64,000 nucleotides of DNA from Elusimicrobiaceae bacterium. GTDB lineage: Bacteria; Elusimicrobiota; Elusimicrobia; Elusimicrobiales; Elusimicrobiaceae. Where the stretch lies: NCBI GenBank assembly GCA_016282685.1, contig JAEELM010000008.1:30737-94736 (forward strand). The letters run 5' to 3'. A program made the translations under genes and the position numbers. The notes beneath the pieces are model-generated. The model made no database searches. It worked only from the letters and a program-made list of their open reading frames with translations, and was not told the origin of the DNA. This document shows, piece after piece, positions 53,267-63,800 of the stretch. The number at the start of each line of letters is the position of its first letter. Within the stretch, counting starts at the first letter, position 1.

Positions 53267-56200
53267 TTAACGAGAAGTTTCTATTAGGCCATATCCGGCA
53301 ATTTTTCCTTCACCGTCTTTACATATAAAAACTTCCCATTCCTTGCTTTCATAACGTCCATTATCATGATATAGTTCCAAATAAATTTTGAACATATTTC
53401 CGGATGATTTCTCACATGCTTCTTTGAACCGTTGCAAGGAAAAAGCTTCTTCATGAATTACTTCATGGAAGAAAGATCGACCTAACAAATTATCGGTACG
53501 GCGGCCTGTAAATTCCAAAAAAGGACGATTCACAAACGTCATGCGATAGTTCAAATCTAACATGACGGCCGGTCTGTCCACATATTCCAGGGTACGAGCA
53601 AAGGACCGAGAAGCCTCGTTAAGCATTTTCCCCGTTTTTCGCAATTCAATACGTAATCCCAACCAACGGGCCAAAATACCGGCTAATTCCTCCGCTCCTG
53701 TAGAAAATTGTCCGTGTGGTTCCGTAGAGGCAAAACATAAAGCTCCGATTACTTCATTTCCTACATATACCGGAGCAGCTACCAAAGAATTCCATCCTTT
53801 TTTACAATGAATACATTGTTTGCAGGAACAATTTTCCAAGTCAGACCACAATAATACATTTCCCTCTAATACTCCTTGCAAACATTCATCCAGCTTAAAA
53901 GACATAGCCGTTTCCAAATGTTGTTCGTTGGGAGTTACATGCATTACATACGTCTCCATCCCATTATCTGTTTCATCGAAACGCAAAATGCAACCTACCT
54001 GCATGTGAAAAGCTCCCACACCGAATTGCATAATCTTATCTACTTGTTTAGACAAAGATATATTCGATTCATCCAAAAGACGATAAACCCGGTGAAGATG
54101 TTGGTCCGTTTCCCGACCGGAAGAAACATCTGTTCCCCACAATACCACTTCATCTTTTTCCGTAATAGGAGATGCCGTCATCTCAAAGTAACGCATTTTA
54201 CCGGCTATTTTCCAAGGAATCTCAAAATGAGTGCTCACATTAATAGACAGAGCCTCTTTAACAGAAGATATAATACGACCGGCAATATCTTCTCCCAAAA
54301 ACTCGGACGGATTTTTCCCTAATAAAGACTGCGCCTGACTATTGTCCCAATAAGATAAATTAGAGCAAATATCCTGTACTGTTCCTTCCCTGCTCATTTT
54401 AATGTAAATTCCAGGTAAAGAACGACGAATACTATTTAATTCTAAAGCTTCCTCCGAGTTTCGCACATATTCATTTTTCTTAGAAGAAATATCACGGATG
54501 ATTACCAAAGCTCCCCCTTGTTTTGGCAAATCGAGAGCCGTTATCGTCACTTCCGCTTCGAAAGATTTTCCATCTTTTCCCAACATATTCCACAGGAAGC
54601 GCACTTTCCCTTTTTGGGCTAATTCTTTTTCATACTGAGCAAACGCATGTGTCGTTTTCTTTCGCGGCGTATTTTCGAACAATTCTTGGAATTTTTTATC
54701 CACCAATTCTTCAGCTGTAATACCCAGTTTTTCCAATAAAAATTTATTACCATGGGCAACTTTTCCAAATTTATCATCTTCAATAAAAATGGAAAATACA
54801 ATTCCGTCTGTTGCATCCAACAAAGCATTCAACTGAGCAGAACGTTCCTTCAAAATATACATTAACTGTTGTTGTAAAATAGGATTCTCTTTTTCTTCCC
54901 CTTCAATCTTGGCTGGCTGTTTCAGAGGATTTACAAAAACCACGTAATCAGCTGCTACGCCCTCTTTTGTATCCCTTTTATTGATAGGCACAAAGGTAAG
55001 ATGCAGCGGCAGCTTTCCCTTTTTGCTAATTCGCCCCGGGAATTTTTTAGCAGCCTTGTCAAAATCTAAAGTATAATCCATTTCACTGCGTTGCCCTTGT
55101 CTAAGTTGTTTACGACTGCTCAACCGGATACCTGGGCGAATATACACATTACAATAAAAATTCTTATCATCTGACGTAAACCCTAATAATTCACGGCAAG
55201 CACGGTTCATTACACGAATATACCCATTCTCTTGCAACCTAAAAGCAGGAACTAACCCTTCCTCAAAAACAGCTTTTAGTGTATTTTTGTCCTCTCGAAG
55301 CTCGCGCAAAATGCGATTGTCTGAGGTAATATCTTTGCAGAAACACAATACAATTCTTCTGCCCAAATAGCGCGCAGGCATTGCATCAAATTCCACTTCT
55401 ATCTTTTGTCCATTTTTCTTTATCAATTGCAAGGAGATAGGTTTCCCCGTTCCTTGAGAAGAGGAAAACGCTTCTTCATACTTTTCCTTGAGAAAAAGAT
55501 GAAAATCTCCATCTACTAACTCTTCCAAAGAACGTCCTTTGATTTTTTCAAAACTATCATATCCTAACATACGTAAAAAGGCATTATTAGAATACATTAC
55601 CTTGTGATTCTCTACCATTAAAACAGCTTCTCGCGCATGGTCAATAAGTAATGAATTTTTGTCATTAGCTTCGCGAATCTGTTTTTCCATACGCGTTTTT
55701 GCCGTAATATCCTCGGAAACCGTAAGCAAACAATCCGGGCTTCCATCCTCGTGGTAAACAGGAGTATGTACCGTATGCATGATTTTTACGCCTTCTGCCG
55801 CAGAGGAAATCAATTCCTGAGGAATTTCTTGTTCCTGATGGCTTTCAAAGACACGAATTTCTTTTTCTCGCAAAAATTCCATTTGATCTTTATTAAGATC
55901 CGTACGATACGAATTTTTACCAATTACGGCAGAAGAAGAAACCCCAAAAATTTCTTCACTCTTTTTGTTCCATAAAATATATTTCCCTTCATTATTTTTT
56001 ACAGACAAAGAGACAGGTAAGTTGTTAATAATTGTTTGCAAGAAATTTTTAGATTCTATCAAAGCTTGTTCTTGCATCTTACGCTGCGTAATATCTTCCG
56101 TTAAAGTAATAACAAATCGCTCTTTTCCCTCCACTACCGGGACTTTCACCATGTGCAATAATTTACGTTTTCCATCGCCGGTAACATATTCTTCTTCCGG

Positions 56201-57562
56201 GATATCCAATGTTTTGCGCGAAGCAAGTAACTGCCTTTCACGAGACATATATCCTTCAATTTGTTCAGGCGTTTCATGGGGCAATGTCCCTGTTTTATCA
56301 AACAAAGTAATCGAAGCTACGTTAAATATCGACTCACATTGTTTGTTGCGCAATAATAATTCTCCATTTTCTCCACGGGCATACAATCCAATTGGCATAT
56401 TTTGAACAATGGCACTCAAAATAGTATTAACACGTTTCATCTCATGTTCTTGATGACGAATTTGTGTTACATCTTCAACAATAGACAGCACCAACGGAGC
56501 CACTCCTTTTTCCTTCAAAGGTACTTTTATTAAACGCAAAATTCGTTTATTGCCGGAAGCATCTGTATATTCTTCTTCTGGAAACTCACATTTTCTACCT
56601 TCTTTGAGTATTTTGATTTCCCGTTTGGCTAAATCTTTGGTTTGCTGCTGATCTTGGAATAAATTCGGATATTCTGACAAATCTGCCGGCTCATCAAAAA
56701 CCAAAGTGCTAGATTTGTTATAAAAAATCAAATTACTTTTTTCATCACGAGCGTACAAACCTAACGGAATATTATCCAAAATAGTGCTCAAAATAGCTTT
56801 TGTCTTCTCTAAATCCGCAATTTCCTTCCGTTCATTTGTCACATTTCGGTAAACGGTAGCAATCATATTTTCGGCCCCATTTTCCGCAGGGACAAATGCT
56901 TTTGTCACTTGTAAAAAAATCTCTTCTTTCTGTGAGTTATGATACGACAAAGAAGCCGTCTCAAACGATTGCGTTTGGCACACTGTATCATCCAAACGCT
57001 GCAAAGAGGATACCAATTCTTTTGGAAGAAAAGAGTAAATATATTGTCCATGTAATCTCTTCGACGATATGCCAAACATTGTTTCGGCAAAACGATTACA
57101 CAAAATTACCTTGCCGTATTCATCTTGTAAAGAAACTGCCATCGGGTAGGCATGCAAACAATTTTCCAAGAAAGAAGTTCCTATCGGTGTCTGCGTTTGC
57201 TTATCCAAAGTAATCATGAAAAGCTTTGTTTGTGCCAACGGTGTAACCGTCATATTTACTAATATAGTGTCCGCTTGAGGAGTAATCACCTCATAAAGAT
57301 GCGGTTCTGCCGTAGTCTGCTTAGCGATTTTCTTTACTTTAGAAAAAGACAAGCCCCATTGTTCTACCCCGGTATCTAACATTTGCTCAACTGTACAAGA
57401 CAATAATGCCGCAACTGCAGGGTTGGCCATTACGATCTTATTTTTTTGGTTAACGAGCAACACGGGATAGGGATATTGATCAAAAAACGACAACATCTCC
57501 GGCGACAAATAACGCACTTCTAAGGATGGCTTCTTTTTAGAAGAGAAAAACGGTATTGGCAT
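53267..57562 (-). CDS. Multi-PAS/GAF sensory protein without recognisable output domain
   Basis: About ten PAS-like segments (e.g. ILSTILDNIPLGLYARDEKSNLIFYNKSS, FLQTIINNLPVSLSVKNNEGKYILWNKKS) plus one GAF; no HATPase, GGDEF, EAL or HTH motif seen. Confidence 0.85.
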   Translation of the reverse strand: MPIPFFSSKKKPSLEVRYLSPEMLSFFDQYPYPVLLVNQKNKIVMANPAVAALLSCTVEQMLDTGVEQWGLSFSKVKKIAKQTTAEPHLYEVITPQADTILVNMTVTPLAQTKLFMITLDKQTQTPIGTSFLENCLHAYPMAVSLQDEYGKVILCNRFAETMFGISSKRLHGQYIYSFLPKELVSSLQRLDDTVCQTQSFETASLSYHNSQKEEIFLQVTKAFVPAENGAENMIATVYRNVTNERKEIADLEKTKAILSTILDNIPLGLYARDEKSNLIFYNKSSTLVFDEPADLSEYPNLFQDQQQTKDLAKREIKILKEGRKCEFPEEEYTDASGNKRILRLIKVPLKEKGVAPLVLSIVEDVTQIRHQEHEMKRVNTILSAIVQNMPIGLYARGENGELLLRNKQCESIFNVASITLFDKTGTLPHETPEQIEGYMSRERQLLASRKTLDIPEEEYVTGDGKRKLLHMVKVPVVEGKERFVITLTEDITQRKMQEQALIESKNFLQTIINNLPVSLSVKNNEGKYILWNKKSEEIFGVSSSAVIGKNSYRTDLNKDQMEFLREKEIRVFESHQEQEIPQELISSAAEGVKIMHTVHTPVYHEDGSPDCLLTVSEDITAKTRMEKQIREANDKNSLLIDHAREAVLMVENHKVMYSNNAFLRMLGYDSFEKIKGRSLEELVDGDFHLFLKEKYEEAFSSSQGTGKPISLQLIKKNGQKIEVEFDAMPARYLGRRIVLCFCKDITSDNRILRELREDKNTLKAVFEEGLVPAFRLQENGYIRVMNRACRELLGFTSDDKNFYCNVYIRPGIRLSSRKQLRQGQRSEMDYTLDFDKAAKKFPGRISKKGKLPLHLTFVPINKRDTKEGVAADYVVFVNPLKQPAKIEGEEKENPILQQQLMYILKERSAQLNALLDATDGIVFSIFIEDDKFGKVAHGNKFLLEKLGITAEELVDKKFQELFENTPRKKTTHAFAQYEKELAQKGKVRFLWNMLGKDGKSFEAEVTITALDLPKQGGALVIIRDISSKKNEYVRNSEEALELNSIRRSLPGIYIKMSREGTVQDICSNLSYWDNSQAQSLLGKNPSEFLGEDIAGRIISSVKEALSINVSTHFEIPWKIAGKMRYFEMTASPITEKDEVVLWGTDVSSGRETDQHLHRVYRLLDESNISLSKQVDKIMQFGVGAFHMQVGCILRFDETDNGMETYVMHVTPNEQHLETAMSFKLDECLQGVLEGNVLLWSDLENCSCKQCIHCKKGWNSLVAAPVYVGNEVIGALCFASTEPHGQFSTGAEELAGILARWLGLRIELRKTGKMLNEASRSFARTLEYVDRPAVMLDLNYRMTFVNRPFLEFTGRRTDNLLGRSFFHEVIHEEAFSLQRFKEACEKSSGNMFKIYLELYHDNGRYESKEWEVFICKDGEGKIAGYGLIETSR

Positions 57563-58303: not shown

Positions 58304-59050
58304 ATGTTACTAGTTCATTTGCGTACGATATTATCTTTTGCTTTTTATCATCAATTATCTTTCGCCAAAAAGGGGCTCTTGGTCGCTTTTGGAGTTTATT
58401 TATTTTTATTATCTGCGCTAATGGCTTACTTTGCACAAGGGGCCTACCTTAATAAAAATATTCCGCTTTTATTGAAAAATTTTCCGGAAGTTACTTTTGA
58501 AAAAGGTGTTCTTGTTGCCCCGGAAAAGCCTGTTTCTGTCTCTTGGCCGGGCGACAAAGCGGAATTAATATTCGATGCAGCAAAAGATGCCATTCCCCCT
58601 CAATCCGCTCCCGATACGCCGCTTATCTGGGTCAATAACAACCTCATTTACATATTTGCGAACAATCAAGTTCAAAAACAAATACTTCCTTCCGAGTTAA
58701 CATTTACCACTTCTCAAGAAAATTTATCTACTTATCAAAATTCAATCTTGATATCTTTGCGTTTAGCTTTTTTTGTAGTTTCTTTATTTTTAATCATCTT
58801 TTTACTTTGTTTTTCTTTTTGTTTGGCTTTCTCAACAGCAATTGTTTTTCGAATAATTCGAAGAATAGATATTCCCTATTCCATTTTAGTCCGCTGGTCT
58901 TTTTTCCTGTTAGGGCCCTTGTCCGTATTGTGGTATATTCGCCTCTGGATAAATATTCCGTTATTTTCCCTGGCCCAGGTAATTTTATGTATCATTTATA
59001 TGCAACAAATTTTTAATTTTGTATCGGAGGTTCCCCCCCATGCGCATTAA
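58304..59050 (+). CDS. DUF1189-like membrane protein
   Basis: N-terminal TM, extracytoplasmic domain, three C-terminal TMs. Confidence 0.65.
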   Translation: MLLVHLRTILSFAFYHQLSFAKKGLLVAFGVYLFLLSALMAYFAQGAYLNKNIPLLLKNFPEVTFEKGVLVAPEKPVSVSWPGDKAELIFDAAKDAIPPQSAPDTPLIWVNNNLIYIFANNQVQKQILPSELTFTTSQENLSTYQNSILISLRLAFFVVSLFLIIFLLCFSFCLAFSTAIVFRIIRRIDIPYSILVRWSFFLLGPLSVLWYIRLWINIPLFSLAQVILCIIYMQQIFNFVSEVPPHAH

Positions 59051-59387
59051 ACTCATACGCACGTTTTCGGCCGCACATCATTTACCCCACTATGATGGGC
59101 CTTGCCACGATTTACACGGACACACCTGGAAAACCGTTTTTATTATTGAGGGACCGGTACAAGAAAATGGAATGGTTTGTGACTTTAAAAAAATCAAAAA
59201 ATTACTTGATTCTCTATTACCAGATCATCAACTTCTAAACGACATCTTACCCAACCCTACCGCGGAAAATTTAGCTCAGTTCTACTTTAAGAAGATAGGA
59301 AACGAACTAAAGAAACAGAATTTAATTTTAAAAACATTGGAAATATGGGAGAGTGATTATGCCGCCGCTGTTGTGGAAGGTGAATGA
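59040..59387 (+). CDS. queD: 6-carboxytetrahydropterin synthase
   Basis: FSAAHHLPHYDGPCHDLHGHTWK with catalytic Cys and HGH, PDHQLLND, NPTAENL, EIWES; ATG at 59040. Confidence 0.92.
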   Translation: MRIKLIRTFSAAHHLPHYDGPCHDLHGHTWKTVFIIEGPVQENGMVCDFKKIKKLLDSLLPDHQLLNDILPNPTAENLAQFYFKKIGNELKKQNLILKTLEIWESDYAAAVVEGE

Positions 59388-59952
59388 AATATTTTATTCC
59401 ATTCAAGGGGAAGGCCGCCACACGGGTATGCCCGCTGTTTTTTTACGTCTAGCAGGATGTACAATGGGCTGTGCATTTTGTGATACCAAATACGCTTTTA
59501 CCGACGGAAAAACTATGAATAGCTTGCAAATTTTGGTAGAATTAGCCCAATATCCCTGTAAAACCGTTGTTATCACGGGAGGAGAACCCACCGAACAGGA
59601 TTTGCCTGCTTTGATTAATACATTAAAAAGTGCCGGCCATACCGTGCACATTGAAACAAACGGTGCCAAAGATACAGATGTAAGCAAAGCAGACTTCGTT
59701 TGTGTTTCTCCCAAAAAATACGTAGCCAAAGAAATGCTTCAAAAAGCAGATATAATCAAATTGGTTATCAGCCAACAAACAGATTTAGAAGATTTGCAAA
59801 AATATTATCAATATGAAAATGAAAAAACCCAAATTTATCTTCAACCCGAAAGCAACAAACAGGAGAATATAGACCTATGCGTAAAACTAATCAAACAACA
59901 TCCAAGCGCCCGGCTAAGCGTACAATTGCACAAACTAATAAACATAAAATAA
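59359..59952 (+). CDS. queE: 7-carboxy-7-deazaguanine synthase
   Basis: FYSIQGEGRHTGMPAVFLRLAGCTMGCAFCDTKYAF radical SAM motif, VVITGGEP, C-terminal LSVQLHKLINIK. Confidence 0.93.
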   Translation: MPPLLWKVNEIFYSIQGEGRHTGMPAVFLRLAGCTMGCAFCDTKYAFTDGKTMNSLQILVELAQYPCKTVVITGGEPTEQDLPALINTLKSAGHTVHIETNGAKDTDVSKADFVCVSPKKYVAKEMLQKADIIKLVISQQTDLEDLQKYYQYENEKTQIYLQPESNKQENIDLCVKLIKQHPSARLSVQLHKLINIK

Positions 59953-60497
59953 CAGAAGAAAAAGTGCTGCAAAATCTGCGCGAAATTTTAGCCTATATTG
60001 GGGATAATCCCTCCCGAGAAGGTCTTTTAGAAACACCCAAACGTATTGTAAAAAGTTGGAAAAAGCTCTACGGCGGTTACGCTCAAAAACCGCAAGACGT
60101 TTTGAAAACGTTTGTGGAAGGTTCTTGTGAAGAAATGGTGGTACTCAAAGATATTGAGTTTTATTCTACCTGTGAACACCATTTGCAACCTTTTTTCGGC
60201 ACAATCAGTATTGGATATTTGCCCAACGGACGTGTGCTGGGCATCTCTAAATTGGCACGGTTAGTGGAAGTGTTTGCACGCCGTCTCCAAATTCAAGAAA
60301 AATTAGTCGCCCAAATCGCCGACAGCTTAATGGAAACACTTCATCCCCACGGCGTAATGGTAGTGTGTAAAGCCAAACATATGTGCATTAGTTCACGCGG
60401 AATTGAAAAACACAACGCTGTAATGGTTACCAGTGCCATCCGTGGCGCGTTTAAGAAAATGGAAGTACGCAGTGAATTTTTAGAAATGATTAAATAG
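59877..60497 (+). CDS. folE: GTP cyclohydrolase I
   Basis: GDNPSREGLLETPKRIVKSW, STCEHHLQPFFGTISIGYLPNGRVLGISKLARLVEVFARRLQIQE. Confidence 0.96.
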   Translation: MRKTNQTTSKRPAKRTIAQTNKHKITEEKVLQNLREILAYIGDNPSREGLLETPKRIVKSWKKLYGGYAQKPQDVLKTFVEGSCEEMVVLKDIEFYSTCEHHLQPFFGTISIGYLPNGRVLGISKLARLVEVFARRLQIQEKLVAQIADSLMETLHPHGVMVVCKAKHMCISSRGIEKHNAVMVTSAIRGAFKKMEVRSEFLEMIK

Positions 60498-60508: not shown

Positions 60509-60748
60509 ATGAGAATATATATATTACTCATTTTTCCTATTCTTTTTTTAAGTGCCTGCGCACATACTTCGGAAAATATTGTTGGGTATAATGAGAAAGG
60601 CCAAACAATTGTTAAAGTATGTAAATCAAGAGGAACTTTGTCTAACATTGACGCCTTTGGCTCCTCTTGTAAAATTGAATTAAGAGACTATGGACGTGTT
60701 TCCAACACATCAGACACAGTAAATATAATATCGACCGATAAAAGATAG
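60509..60748 (+). CDS. Small lipoprotein
   Basis: Lipobox FLSAC; 79 aa, between folE and folP. Confidence 0.6.
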   Translation: MRIYILLIFPILFLSACAHTSENIVGYNEKGQTIVKVCKSRGTLSNIDAFGSSCKIELRDYGRVSNTSDTVNIISTDKR

Positions 60749-60764: not shown

Positions 60765-61562
60765 ATGATGACGACACAACTAATGGGCATTATCAATGCC
60801 ACACCGGATTCATTTTACGACGGGAATCCACAAAATAATTTAGATGCGCTTGTAAAAAAGTGTACAGATTTTGTTGCAGACGGCGCTGATATTTTAGATA
60901 TTGGTGGAGAATCCACTCGCCCCGGCGCATCTCCAGTATCCACCGAGGAAGAATTATCACGCGTATTGCCGCTTATTAAAGCAGCCCATAAAAAATGGCC
61001 GAAAATTCCGCTCTCATTAGACACCACCAAACCAGTTGTTGCGTTGGAAGGACTCAAAAACGGCGTGTCCATTATAAATGATGTCAGTGGCACTACCGGC
61101 AAAGAAATGTTCCAGCTCGTAAAAGACTTCAACGCCCAAATTGTCGTCATGCACGCACGTGGCAATCCTCAAAATATGCAAACACTTACCTCTTATAACG
61201 ATTTGATTGGCGAAATTAAAGAGTTTCTGGTGGAAAAAATCGCACAAGCCCACAATTATGGTCTTACAAACGAACAAATTATTATAGATCCCGGCTTTGG
61301 TTTTGCCAAAACGCGTGAACAAAATTATTTACTGCTAAAAAATTTGCACTCTCTCAAAGAATTGGGAGTGCGCCTTCTAATCGGACTATCCCGCAAAACA
61401 TTCCTGGCGCAAAAACGGGAACTTCCTCCAAAACGCAAGGCGCAAACTTTGGCCGCTAATTTAATTGCTCTGGAACAGGGGGCCGATATTTTGCGCGTGC
61501 ACGACGTACGTGACACACGTAAAATAGTAGATTTCTATAAAGAATTGGAGGCAGCAAAATGA
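60765..61562 (+). CDS. folP: Dihydropteroate synthase
   Basis: MGIINATPDSFYDG, DILDIGGESTRPGA, IIDPGFGFAKT. Confidence 0.95.
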   Translation: MMTTQLMGIINATPDSFYDGNPQNNLDALVKKCTDFVADGADILDIGGESTRPGASPVSTEEELSRVLPLIKAAHKKWPKIPLSLDTTKPVVALEGLKNGVSIINDVSGTTGKEMFQLVKDFNAQIVVMHARGNPQNMQTLTSYNDLIGEIKEFLVEKIAQAHNYGLTNEQIIIDPGFGFAKTREQNYLLLKNLHSLKELGVRLLIGLSRKTFLAQKRELPPKRKAQTLAANLIALEQGADILRVHDVRDTRKIVDFYKELEAAK

Positions 61563-61903
61563 CCCATGTCTATTTGACTCAAGCGGGCAATTTTACCGCC
61601 CAGCACAGCCACCAAGGCACCCTGGCTGAAGGGCCCCATACGCATCAATTCATCTATGAAGTTACTTTTTATGGTCCCCTAAATAAGGAAGGATATTTGC
61701 TAGATTTTCGAGATGTACAACAACAGCTGGAAAAAATTGTGTCTCCTCTTAAAAATAAGGATTTAAGTCAATTTTTCAAAAACCCCACCACTGAAAACAT
61801 TTGCATTTGGCTTTACAACCAAGCCTCTCACAAAATGCCGTATGTTAAAAGTGTACGTGTGGCGGAAGAACCTGACCGTTGGATTCAAGTAGGAGATTTA
61901 TAA
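61559..61903 (+). CDS. PTPS/QueD-family paralog lacking canonical catalytic residues; candidate FolB substitute
   Basis: Zn-ligand-type His (QHSH, HTH) and NPTTENI/AEEPDRW retained; catalytic Cys and DH not present; ATGA overlap with folP. Confidence 0.75.
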   Translation: MTHVYLTQAGNFTAQHSHQGTLAEGPHTHQFIYEVTFYGPLNKEGYLLDFRDVQQQLEKIVSPLKNKDLSQFFKNPTTENICIWLYNQASHKMPYVKSVRVAEEPDRWIQVGDL

Positions 61904-61904
61904 T

Positions 61905-62402
61905 ATGGCTACCGCTATTCTGGCACTTGGCAGTAATTTAGATCCGGCTAAAGAAAATATAGATAAGGCCATTAAAGCCTTGTCCAGTGTGGGGAATGTA
62001 AAGGAAATCGCTCCTTATATCGTGTCAAAGCCGGAAGGATATACCCACCAGCCTGATTTCATTAATACAGTTCTGGTCTTGAGCACTCCCTATTTGCCAA
62101 TGCCCTTACTAAAAAAATTAAAAGAATTGGAAAAGCAATTGGGACGCACTCCTACTTTTCCCAACGGGCCTAGAGTCATTGACTTGGACATTTTGTTCTA
62201 TGATAATATGGTCATTTTTGAAGATACGGAAGAATACACCCTGGCCATTCCACATCCGCGAATACAAGAACGAGAGTTCGTATTAAAACCCCTTTCCTAT
62301 ATTCTTCCCGATTACATTCATCCCAAATTAGGTAAACCTATTTATAAATTATATCGCGAACTTATGAAAAAAAAGGGTTTACCAACTTGTAAAATATTGT
62401 AG
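61905..62402 (+). CDS. folK: HPPK, 2-amino-4-hydroxy-6-hydroxymethyldihydropteridine diphosphokinase
   Basis: ILALGSNLDPAKENI, LGRTPTFPNGPRVIDLDILFYDN, IPHPRIQEREFVLKPL. Confidence 0.96.
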   Translation: MATAILALGSNLDPAKENIDKAIKALSSVGNVKEIAPYIVSKPEGYTHQPDFINTVLVLSTPYLPMPLLKKLKELEKQLGRTPTFPNGPRVIDLDILFYDNMVIFEDTEEYTLAIPHPRIQEREFVLKPLSYILPDYIHPKLGKPIYKLYRELMKKKGLPTCKIL

Positions 62403-62452: not shown

Positions 62453-63016
62453 ATGAAAAAAGTAATGACTATCTTGGTAGCCGCTCTTTTCTTAGGCGCC
62501 TGCCATTGCACCAAATGCACGAAAAAATCGTGCCAAAAAGCGCCGGTTGCTCCGGCTCCAGTAGTAGTAGTTGCTCCGAAACCTTTACCGCCTGCTCCTA
62601 AACCGCAGCCGAAAGTGGAAGCCAACGACTTTAAAGAAGTGGCTGTTGTCAATCAACAAGCCGAAAACAAAGTCGTTTTGAACTTCAAAGATCCGATCAA
62701 CTTCGCTTATAACAGCGATGTCATCAATGAAGATTCTTTGGAAAGCATTCAAAAAGTAGCCAATGTTTTGAAAAAATATCCGAACGCTACTGTTCACTGC
62801 GTCGGTTACACCGATTCTTTAGGTAACGCCGATTACAACGTAGATCTTTCTCAACGCCGCGCTAAAGCCGTTGAAATGCAACTCGTAAAAGACGGTGTAA
62901 AAGCCGGTAACGTAACCTCCGAAGGTCGTGGTGCTGCTAATCCGATTGCCACCAACAAGACCGCCGCTGGACGTGCTCAAAACCGCCGTGTAGAATTGGA
63001 AGTAACCAACAAATAA
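62453..63016 (+). CDS. OmpA-family lipoprotein
   Basis: Lipobox FLGAC; VHCVGYTDSLGNADYNVDLSQRRAKAVEMQLVKDGV...NRRVEL. Confidence 0.92.
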   Translation: MKKVMTILVAALFLGACHCTKCTKKSCQKAPVAPAPVVVVAPKPLPPAPKPQPKVEANDFKEVAVVNQQAENKVVLNFKDPINFAYNSDVINEDSLESIQKVANVLKKYPNATVHCVGYTDSLGNADYNVDLSQRRAKAVEMQLVKDGVKAGNVTSEGRGAANPIATNKTAAGRAQNRRVELEVTNK

Positions 63017-63161: not shown

Positions 63162-63800
63162 ATGAAAAAAACGTTGTTATTTGGCATTGCTTGTGCTTTG
63201 CTAATTTCTGCTTGTACTACCCCTGGTAAAAGAACTGCTTGGGGAGCAGCCGGCGGAGCTGCCGTAGGCGCCGCTGCTGGTGCTATCATCTCTCACTCTA
63301 CAGGTGGTAAAAGCGGTACAGGCGCTTTGATCGGTGGCTTAACTGGTTTAGCCGCTGGCGGAGCATTGGGAAATTATTACGATAAGCAAGCCAAAGAATT
63401 GGCCGCCATTGCTGATGTGGTAAAAGGGGAAAATGGCATTCAAGTATTCTTGAAAAACGATATTTTGTTTGATATCGGCAGTGCCGAATTATCTGCCGGG
63501 GCCATTCAAACATTAACCGATCTTAATAAGGTCCTTAAAAAATATCCCAAAAACCGCATTGTTGTACAAGGTTATACGGATTCTACTGGTTCTGATGAAT
63601 TGAACCAAAAATTATCCACCCAACGTGCACAAGCCGTATATAACTACTTAGTCGGCACGGGATTGAAAACATTGAGCATCTCCTACGTGGGTTATGGAAA
63701 AGCCAATCCGATTGCTAGCAATGATACAGAAGAAGGGCGTGCTAAAAACCGCCGCGTCGTATTAGCTATCACTGCTAACGAAAAAGATATTGCTCAATAA
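63162..63800 (+). CDS. OmpA-family lipoprotein with glycine-zipper N-region
   Basis: Lipobox LISAC; AAGGAAVGAAAGAIISHSTGGKSGTGALIGGLTGLAAGGALG; IVVQGYTDSTGSDELNQKLSTQRAQAV. Confidence 0.92.
   Translation: MKKTLLFGIACALLISACTTPGKRTAWGAAGGAAVGAAAGAIISHSTGGKSGTGALIGGLTGLAAGGALGNYYDKQAKELAAIADVVKGENGIQVFLKNDILFDIGSAELSAGAIQTLTDLNKVLKKYPKNRIVVQGYTDSTGSDELNQKLSTQRAQAVYNYLVGTGLKTLSISYVGYGKANPIASNDTEEGRAKNRRVVLAITANEKDIAQ

Follow-up and report, generated by a model that had tools for sequence, protein, structure and literature searches.

The folate operon in the window, a 64,000-nucleotide stretch of an Elusimicrobiaceae genome, raises the question of which enzyme carries out the FolB step when no folB is found and a PTPS-family gene (hereafter X) lies between folP and folK. 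A sequence-only reading of this DNA had proposed that X replaces FolB, and the locus, the residues of X and its relatives together give a graded answer.

The operon and the remaining folate genes

Genes at the locus run queD-queE-folE-lipoprotein ORF-folP-X-folK, with profiles confirming every member except the lipoprotein:

59040–59387, + strand: queD (PTPS-I), motif CHDLHGH, with the Cys and no Glu after it (TIGR03367, 2.7e-23)
59353–59952, + strand: queE (TIGR04322, 1.7e-42)
59877–60497, + strand: folE, GTP cyclohydrolase I, whose product is dihydroneopterin triphosphate (TIGR00063, 5.3e-68)
60509–60748, + strand: small lipoprotein-like ORF of 79 aa between folE and folP (no Pfam family)
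60765–61562, + strand: folP, dihydropteroate synthase, with an ATGA overlap with X (TIGR01496, 4.9e-90)
61559–61903, + strand: X, a 114-aa PTPS-family protein (range includes the stop codon) proposed to replace FolB (PF01242, E = 2.7e-17)
61905–62402, + strand: folK, HPPK (TIGR01498, 2.1e-33)

The order from folE to folK that had been read from the letters alone thus stands, with queD and queE directly upstream, as do the exact coordinates of the 114-aa frame and its ATGA coupling to folP: the start codon of X lies within the folP stop (folP ends at 61562) and is preceded by GGAGG, and folK starts 2 nt beyond the X stop. The lipoprotein-like ORF, counted as part of that order, is present here but confined to this species at this place, since tblastn found none in the operons of relatives. 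X itself is a PTPS-family protein, scoring 63.3 bits against PF01242 (gathering cut-off 22.4), which places it in the PTPS superfamily (PF01242/COG0720); PTPS was the sole family matched in a Pfam scan, the FolB profile PF02152 did not match, and all NCBIfam PTPS/QueD models, TIGR03367 included, scored far under their cut-offs. A search for viral relatives of X found none.

The genome that contains the window (G000; 1.42 Mb in 49 contigs, a 91% complete draft) was searched with PF02152 for a canonical folB elsewhere, the check that the sequence-only reading had itself proposed, and gave no match, while the same search recovered FolB in 10 of 14 control genomes. It encodes exactly two PTPS proteins, QueD and X. 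FolC is present, and DHFR (PF00186) was not found in this genome, though the folate pathway is otherwise there. Absence of DHFR is common in organisms using ThyX; here it is perhaps ThyX-based, or an assembly gap.

Residue signature, classification and fold of X

Across 81 distinct X proteins, drawn from the window's family and from a second, distant group described below, sixteen positions are invariant: F12, A14, H16, H18, E24, H27, H29, F31, N42, E44, D49, R51, L69, T77, E79 and E103. This set was gathered by the protein's own motif, so the invariance of H16, H18, E24, H27 and H29 is partly a product of selection; the same residues appear, free of that bias, in 42 aligned loci that were retrieved purely by homology and in the seven proteins of the second group. 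The spacing H18-x5-E24-x2-H27-x-H29 was constant even in a scan that allowed 4 to 7 residues. For comparison we used 38 other PTPS proteins (QueD, CExxHGH dual-motif enzymes, PTPS-II and Pyrococcus horikoshii PH0634). The codons concerned are:

61604–61606, + strand: His16, zinc-type ligand of FxAxH (81/81)
61610–61612, + strand: His18 (81/81 in X; in other PTPS classes the aligned column is not conserved and has Tyr, Lys, Glu, Leu, Val or His)
61628–61630, + strand: Glu24, the PTPS-III-type glutamate of ExxHxH (81/81)
61637–61645, + strand: His27-Thr28-His29, the HGH position with Gly replaced (both His in 81/81, with a variable residue between them)
61751–61756, + strand: Lys65-Asn66, at the Asp-His dyad site of other PTPS (Asp-His in 0/81 X against 38/38 others)
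61865–61867, + strand: Glu103, the pterin-anchoring glutamate position (81/81)

The residues singled out from the sequence alone (H16, E24, H27-T28-H29, K65-N66 in place of Asp-His, and E103) are all where they were said to be. The change of HGH to HTH is true of this protein, but HTH is no motif in itself, because the middle residue varies across relatives: position 28 is E, T, P, S, D, A, R or another residue, and Gly in only two of the 81, whereas Gly28 and Asp65-His66 occur in all 38 reference proteins. The earlier judgement that X is more divergent than a plain Cys-to-Glu PTPS-III is borne out by these two positions. Glu24 aligns with the Glu of PH0634 and of the CExxHGH dual-motif enzymes, the only reference proteins with Glu at this column; QueD never has it. 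Compared with its counterpart in the nearest relative (L004), the X of the window has a dN/dS of about 0.24 (0.287/1.216), which indicates purifying selection, and the residue pattern, being conserved in 81 distinct proteins, is kept far beyond chance. Residue invariance and dN/dS together rule out a decayed gene, and X is, judged by its sequence, a coherent variant.

Placing this variant among the PTPS classes is less simple. The three zinc-ligand His of the superfamily are present (H16, H27 and H29 in 81/81), and the Asp-His of the PTPS intersubunit catalytic triad is missing. X matches neither the PTPS-I motif CxxxHGH (no Cys, no Gly) nor the PTPS-II motif CxxxxxHGH, and the PTPS-IV signature FGPAQ (PMC5445326) was sought in it and is absent. 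Published motifs assign ExxHGH to PTPS-III, CxxxHGH to QueD and CExxHGH to enzymes serving both pathways, the PTPS-I/III dual enzymes (PMC5041015). With PTPS-III (Plasmodium PTPS and the bacterial and archaeal COG0720 FolB replacers) X shares the Glu three residues before HxH, with no aligned Cys, as well as the zinc-type His, the clustering with folate genes and an organism without FolB; it differs in having ExxHxH with a variable middle residue instead of ExxHGH, in lacking the Asp-His dyad, and in the extra invariant residues His18, Asn42, Glu44 and Arg51. Since it fails the published motif and lacks the dyad, we do not file X as a strict PTPS-III, though it most likely works like a PTPS-III enzyme.

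As for the suggestion that X is a new FolB-replacing subtype, FolB replacement is supported and the divergence is real, but novelty is limited, in that X was set apart here from the PTPS-I to -IV motifs only and may coincide with a named class, PTPS-V or PTPS-VI. The paper defining those two classes reportedly also described variant PTPS-III signatures in Sulfolobus, with which X may overlap. PTPS-VI is described as a folate enzyme (PMC5041015).

Structurally, AlphaFold predicts X as a confident T-fold monomer (pLDDT 95.8), the active site lying between subunits. PH0634 (PDB 2dj6/2dtt) is the closest solved protein in both sequence (about 30% identity) and fold (best PDB match, TM 0.89), followed by QueD and PTPS (TM 0.8–0.9). 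It shares with X the T-fold, the Glu in ExxH, NPTTE and the C-terminal Glu, and unlike X retains HGH and LDH and has Lys at the His18 column. QueD has the PTPS fold and zinc His, and is encoded in the same operon, but X lacks its Cys, HGH Gly and Asp-His; the dual CExxHGH enzymes have the same Glu as X and keep Cys, HGH and Asp-His, with one protein for queuosine and folate. FolB would share with X its product and pathway position, and also a T-fold, at weak similarity (TM about 0.5) and with no sequence match. In the model, a single long strand (residues 3–18) carries both His16 and His18, which, being two residues apart, would face the same side of it.

Evolutionarily, the X proteins of the window's family form a clade (98/91), those of the second group another (100/100), and the two join at 91/84, with PH0634 and PTPS-II nearby and the family's QueDs elsewhere. 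The placement on a PTPS tree that had been proposed as a check thus puts X outside the QueD clade, but an AU test on this short alignment does not reject a joint clade of X and QueD (p = 0.29). We also considered X as a recent duplicate of the QueD encoded in this operon; they stand apart in the tree, though by the same AU value their joint clade is not rejected.

Genomes with and without X

A search of 295 genomes from the phylum found X in 74 of the 79 that belong to the window's family (Elusimicrobiaceae, f1), 56 of them in genus g1 and 18 in g2 and g3. FolB occurs in 47 of the 295, all from other families of the class and none overlapping with X; it was found in none of the 79 f1 genomes, which include several that are 98–99% complete and one single contig, and in none of those sampled from the sister family (f2). 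Ten more distant matches to X in the phylum are QueD-like, and those that were read carry CExxHGH. Gene order queD-queE-folE-folP-X-folK is retained in g1 and g2, and of 60 loci retrieved through homology to X, 57 have both folP and folK beside it; at g3 loci folK follows X and folP does not adjoin it. Many of the related Elusimicrobium and Elusimicrobiaceae MAGs come from rumen and gut samples.

The genomes without X serve as natural controls. Two of them in g1 (G216 and G231) are incomplete drafts with zero PTPS matches. The others in f1 fit the prediction of the FolB-replacement hypothesis: in G129 and G135, folK is accompanied by a QueD whose motif is CEALHGH or CERLHGH, and G131, where folK is absent, has CRFLHGH, without the Glu. 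In f2, which has neither FolB nor X, CENLHGH is present in 31/31 folK-positive genomes, and the Glu is absent from 13 of 21 PTPS entries of folK-negative genomes. This correlation (Fisher 3e-7) is not phylogenetically independent, and correction for kinship leaves only 3–4 well-supported independent pairs, none contrary and too few for significance, so the association is suggestive. That Glu was absent from every QueD examined in X-bearing genomes. A single dual-function CExxHGH QueD where folK is present but X and FolB are both absent, and Glu-less QueDs alongside X, support X as the replacement of FolB.

Two further observations concern f2. One genome (G229; L134, L159) has two QueD copies, CANLHGH and CENLHGH, and folK was not found in it. 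At L132, L133 and L138, FolP and then FolK matches fall within one open frame of 550–690 aa, so that FolP and FolK are probably fused there, unlike in the window.

Outside the phylum, homology led to a Deltaproteobacteria-labelled groundwater MAG (L126) with folP-X-folK in overlapping frames. X was found in 7 of 291 genomes of that MAG's phylum, each time between folP and folK, and these proteins share the X signature; none of the seven has FolB. The same genomes encode further members of the PTPS family, and the PTPS-II motif CxxxxxHGH is present in several of these; L210, L211 and L214–L216 represent genomes that carry X together with a PTPS of this biopterin type.

Proposed reaction and alternatives

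Functionally, we consider it probable, at roughly 0.8, that X replaces FolB in this folate pathway through a PTPS-III-type reaction, as the sequence-only reading had proposed. No FolB was found in its own genome or in the 79 of its family, folP-X-folK recurs in two distant groups, and CExxHGH QueDs occur in folate-making relatives without X. A PTPS-III reaction is the most likely one given the retained Glu, zinc site and pterin Glu, the position between folP and folK and the missing FolB. From this we infer that FolE would supply 7,8-dihydroneopterin triphosphate, the predicted substrate, which X would convert to 6-hydroxymethyl-dihydropterin as PTPS-III enzymes do, with FolP and then FolC continuing the pathway. 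His16, His27 and His29 would bind zinc, Glu103 would hold the pterin, and Glu24 would be the catalytic acid/base where other PTPS have a Cys. Plasmodium PTPS likewise has a Glu, Glu38, instead of that Cys and needs it to form 6-hydroxymethyl-dihydropterin; a Glu38-to-Cys change abolishes this product (PMC2229834).

Weighing against this reading are the incompleteness of the MAGs, the phylogenetic non-independence of the folK/Glu correlation, the DHFR that was not found among the later steps, and the missing Asp-His, part of the PTPS catalytic triad; a literature search for PTPS catalytic-dyad mutants found no tested precedent for its loss. Since the dyad is missing, its role would be either unneeded for the cleavage or assumed by residues invariant in X only, with His18, Glu44 and Arg51 as candidates. 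A more specific proposal strikes us as evenly poised: X would be a FolB-replacing subfamily that split off anciently, is shared by two or more distant groups of bacteria, and carries out PTPS-III cleavage without Asp-His, with His18 (together with Glu44 or Arg51) standing in. Were it true, the Asp-His dyad would be dispensable for the folate-forming reaction.

Among other explanations, the one that survives best, a possible but clearly lesser prospect, is that X is a true aldolase acting on dihydroneopterin or its monophosphate, after a separate phosphatase, instead of on the triphosphate. Monophosphate is possibly used by some archaeal PTPS-III members (PMC5041015), and loss of Asp-His could suit a retro-aldol reaction without triphosphate elimination chemistry, but no Nudix or phosphatase gene lies between folE and folK in the window, where the operon runs from FolE straight to X. 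We think it unlikely that X has lost all catalysis and serves QueD, FolE or FolP as a structural or regulatory partner, with an unrecognised enzyme providing the FolB activity: the loss of Asp-His from all 81 proteins would suit such a role, whereas the invariant zinc ligands, Glu24, Glu103 and other residues, the low dN/dS, the shared location of X, flanked by folP and folK, in both of the distant groups, and the CExxHGH enzymes that fill the FolB gap where X is absent all speak against it. Synthesis of 6-pyruvoyl- or 6-carboxy-tetrahydropterin for biopterin or queuosine, which the PTPS fold and the adjacent queD and queE might suggest, is more improbable still, as X lacks a Cys where catalysis would need it, the operon already encodes a normal QueD, and the second group's X lies between folP and folK, away from que genes. 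That FolB hides in the missing 9% of the draft, with X an accessory gene, is scarcely credible, being contradicted by its absence from all 79 family genomes, the near-complete ones included, and by the controls in which the search worked.

If X does act as proposed, it would bear on annotation, the FolB step being a recognised gap in many folate pathways and misannotation being widespread among PTPS proteins: the signature [FY]xAxHxH-x5-E-x2-HxH without Asp-His would let seemingly folate-deficient genomes be annotated as folate makers. It would also offer a natural experiment on the residues needed for pterin side-chain cleavage, in which the zinc site and the Glu stay and the dyad is lost. 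Within the family, folate and queuosine duties apparently fall to a single CExxHGH protein in certain lineages, whereas in others QueD and X divide them.

Beyond the folate genes, two consecutive OmpA/Pal-like lipoprotein genes follow the operon (62453–63016 and 63162–63800), and many relatives have OmpA-like genes close to folK. Upstream, on the minus strand (53267–57562), lies a 1431-aa ORF that by eye resembles a multi-PAS sensor; part of it looks GAF-like, and a kinase end is not obvious.
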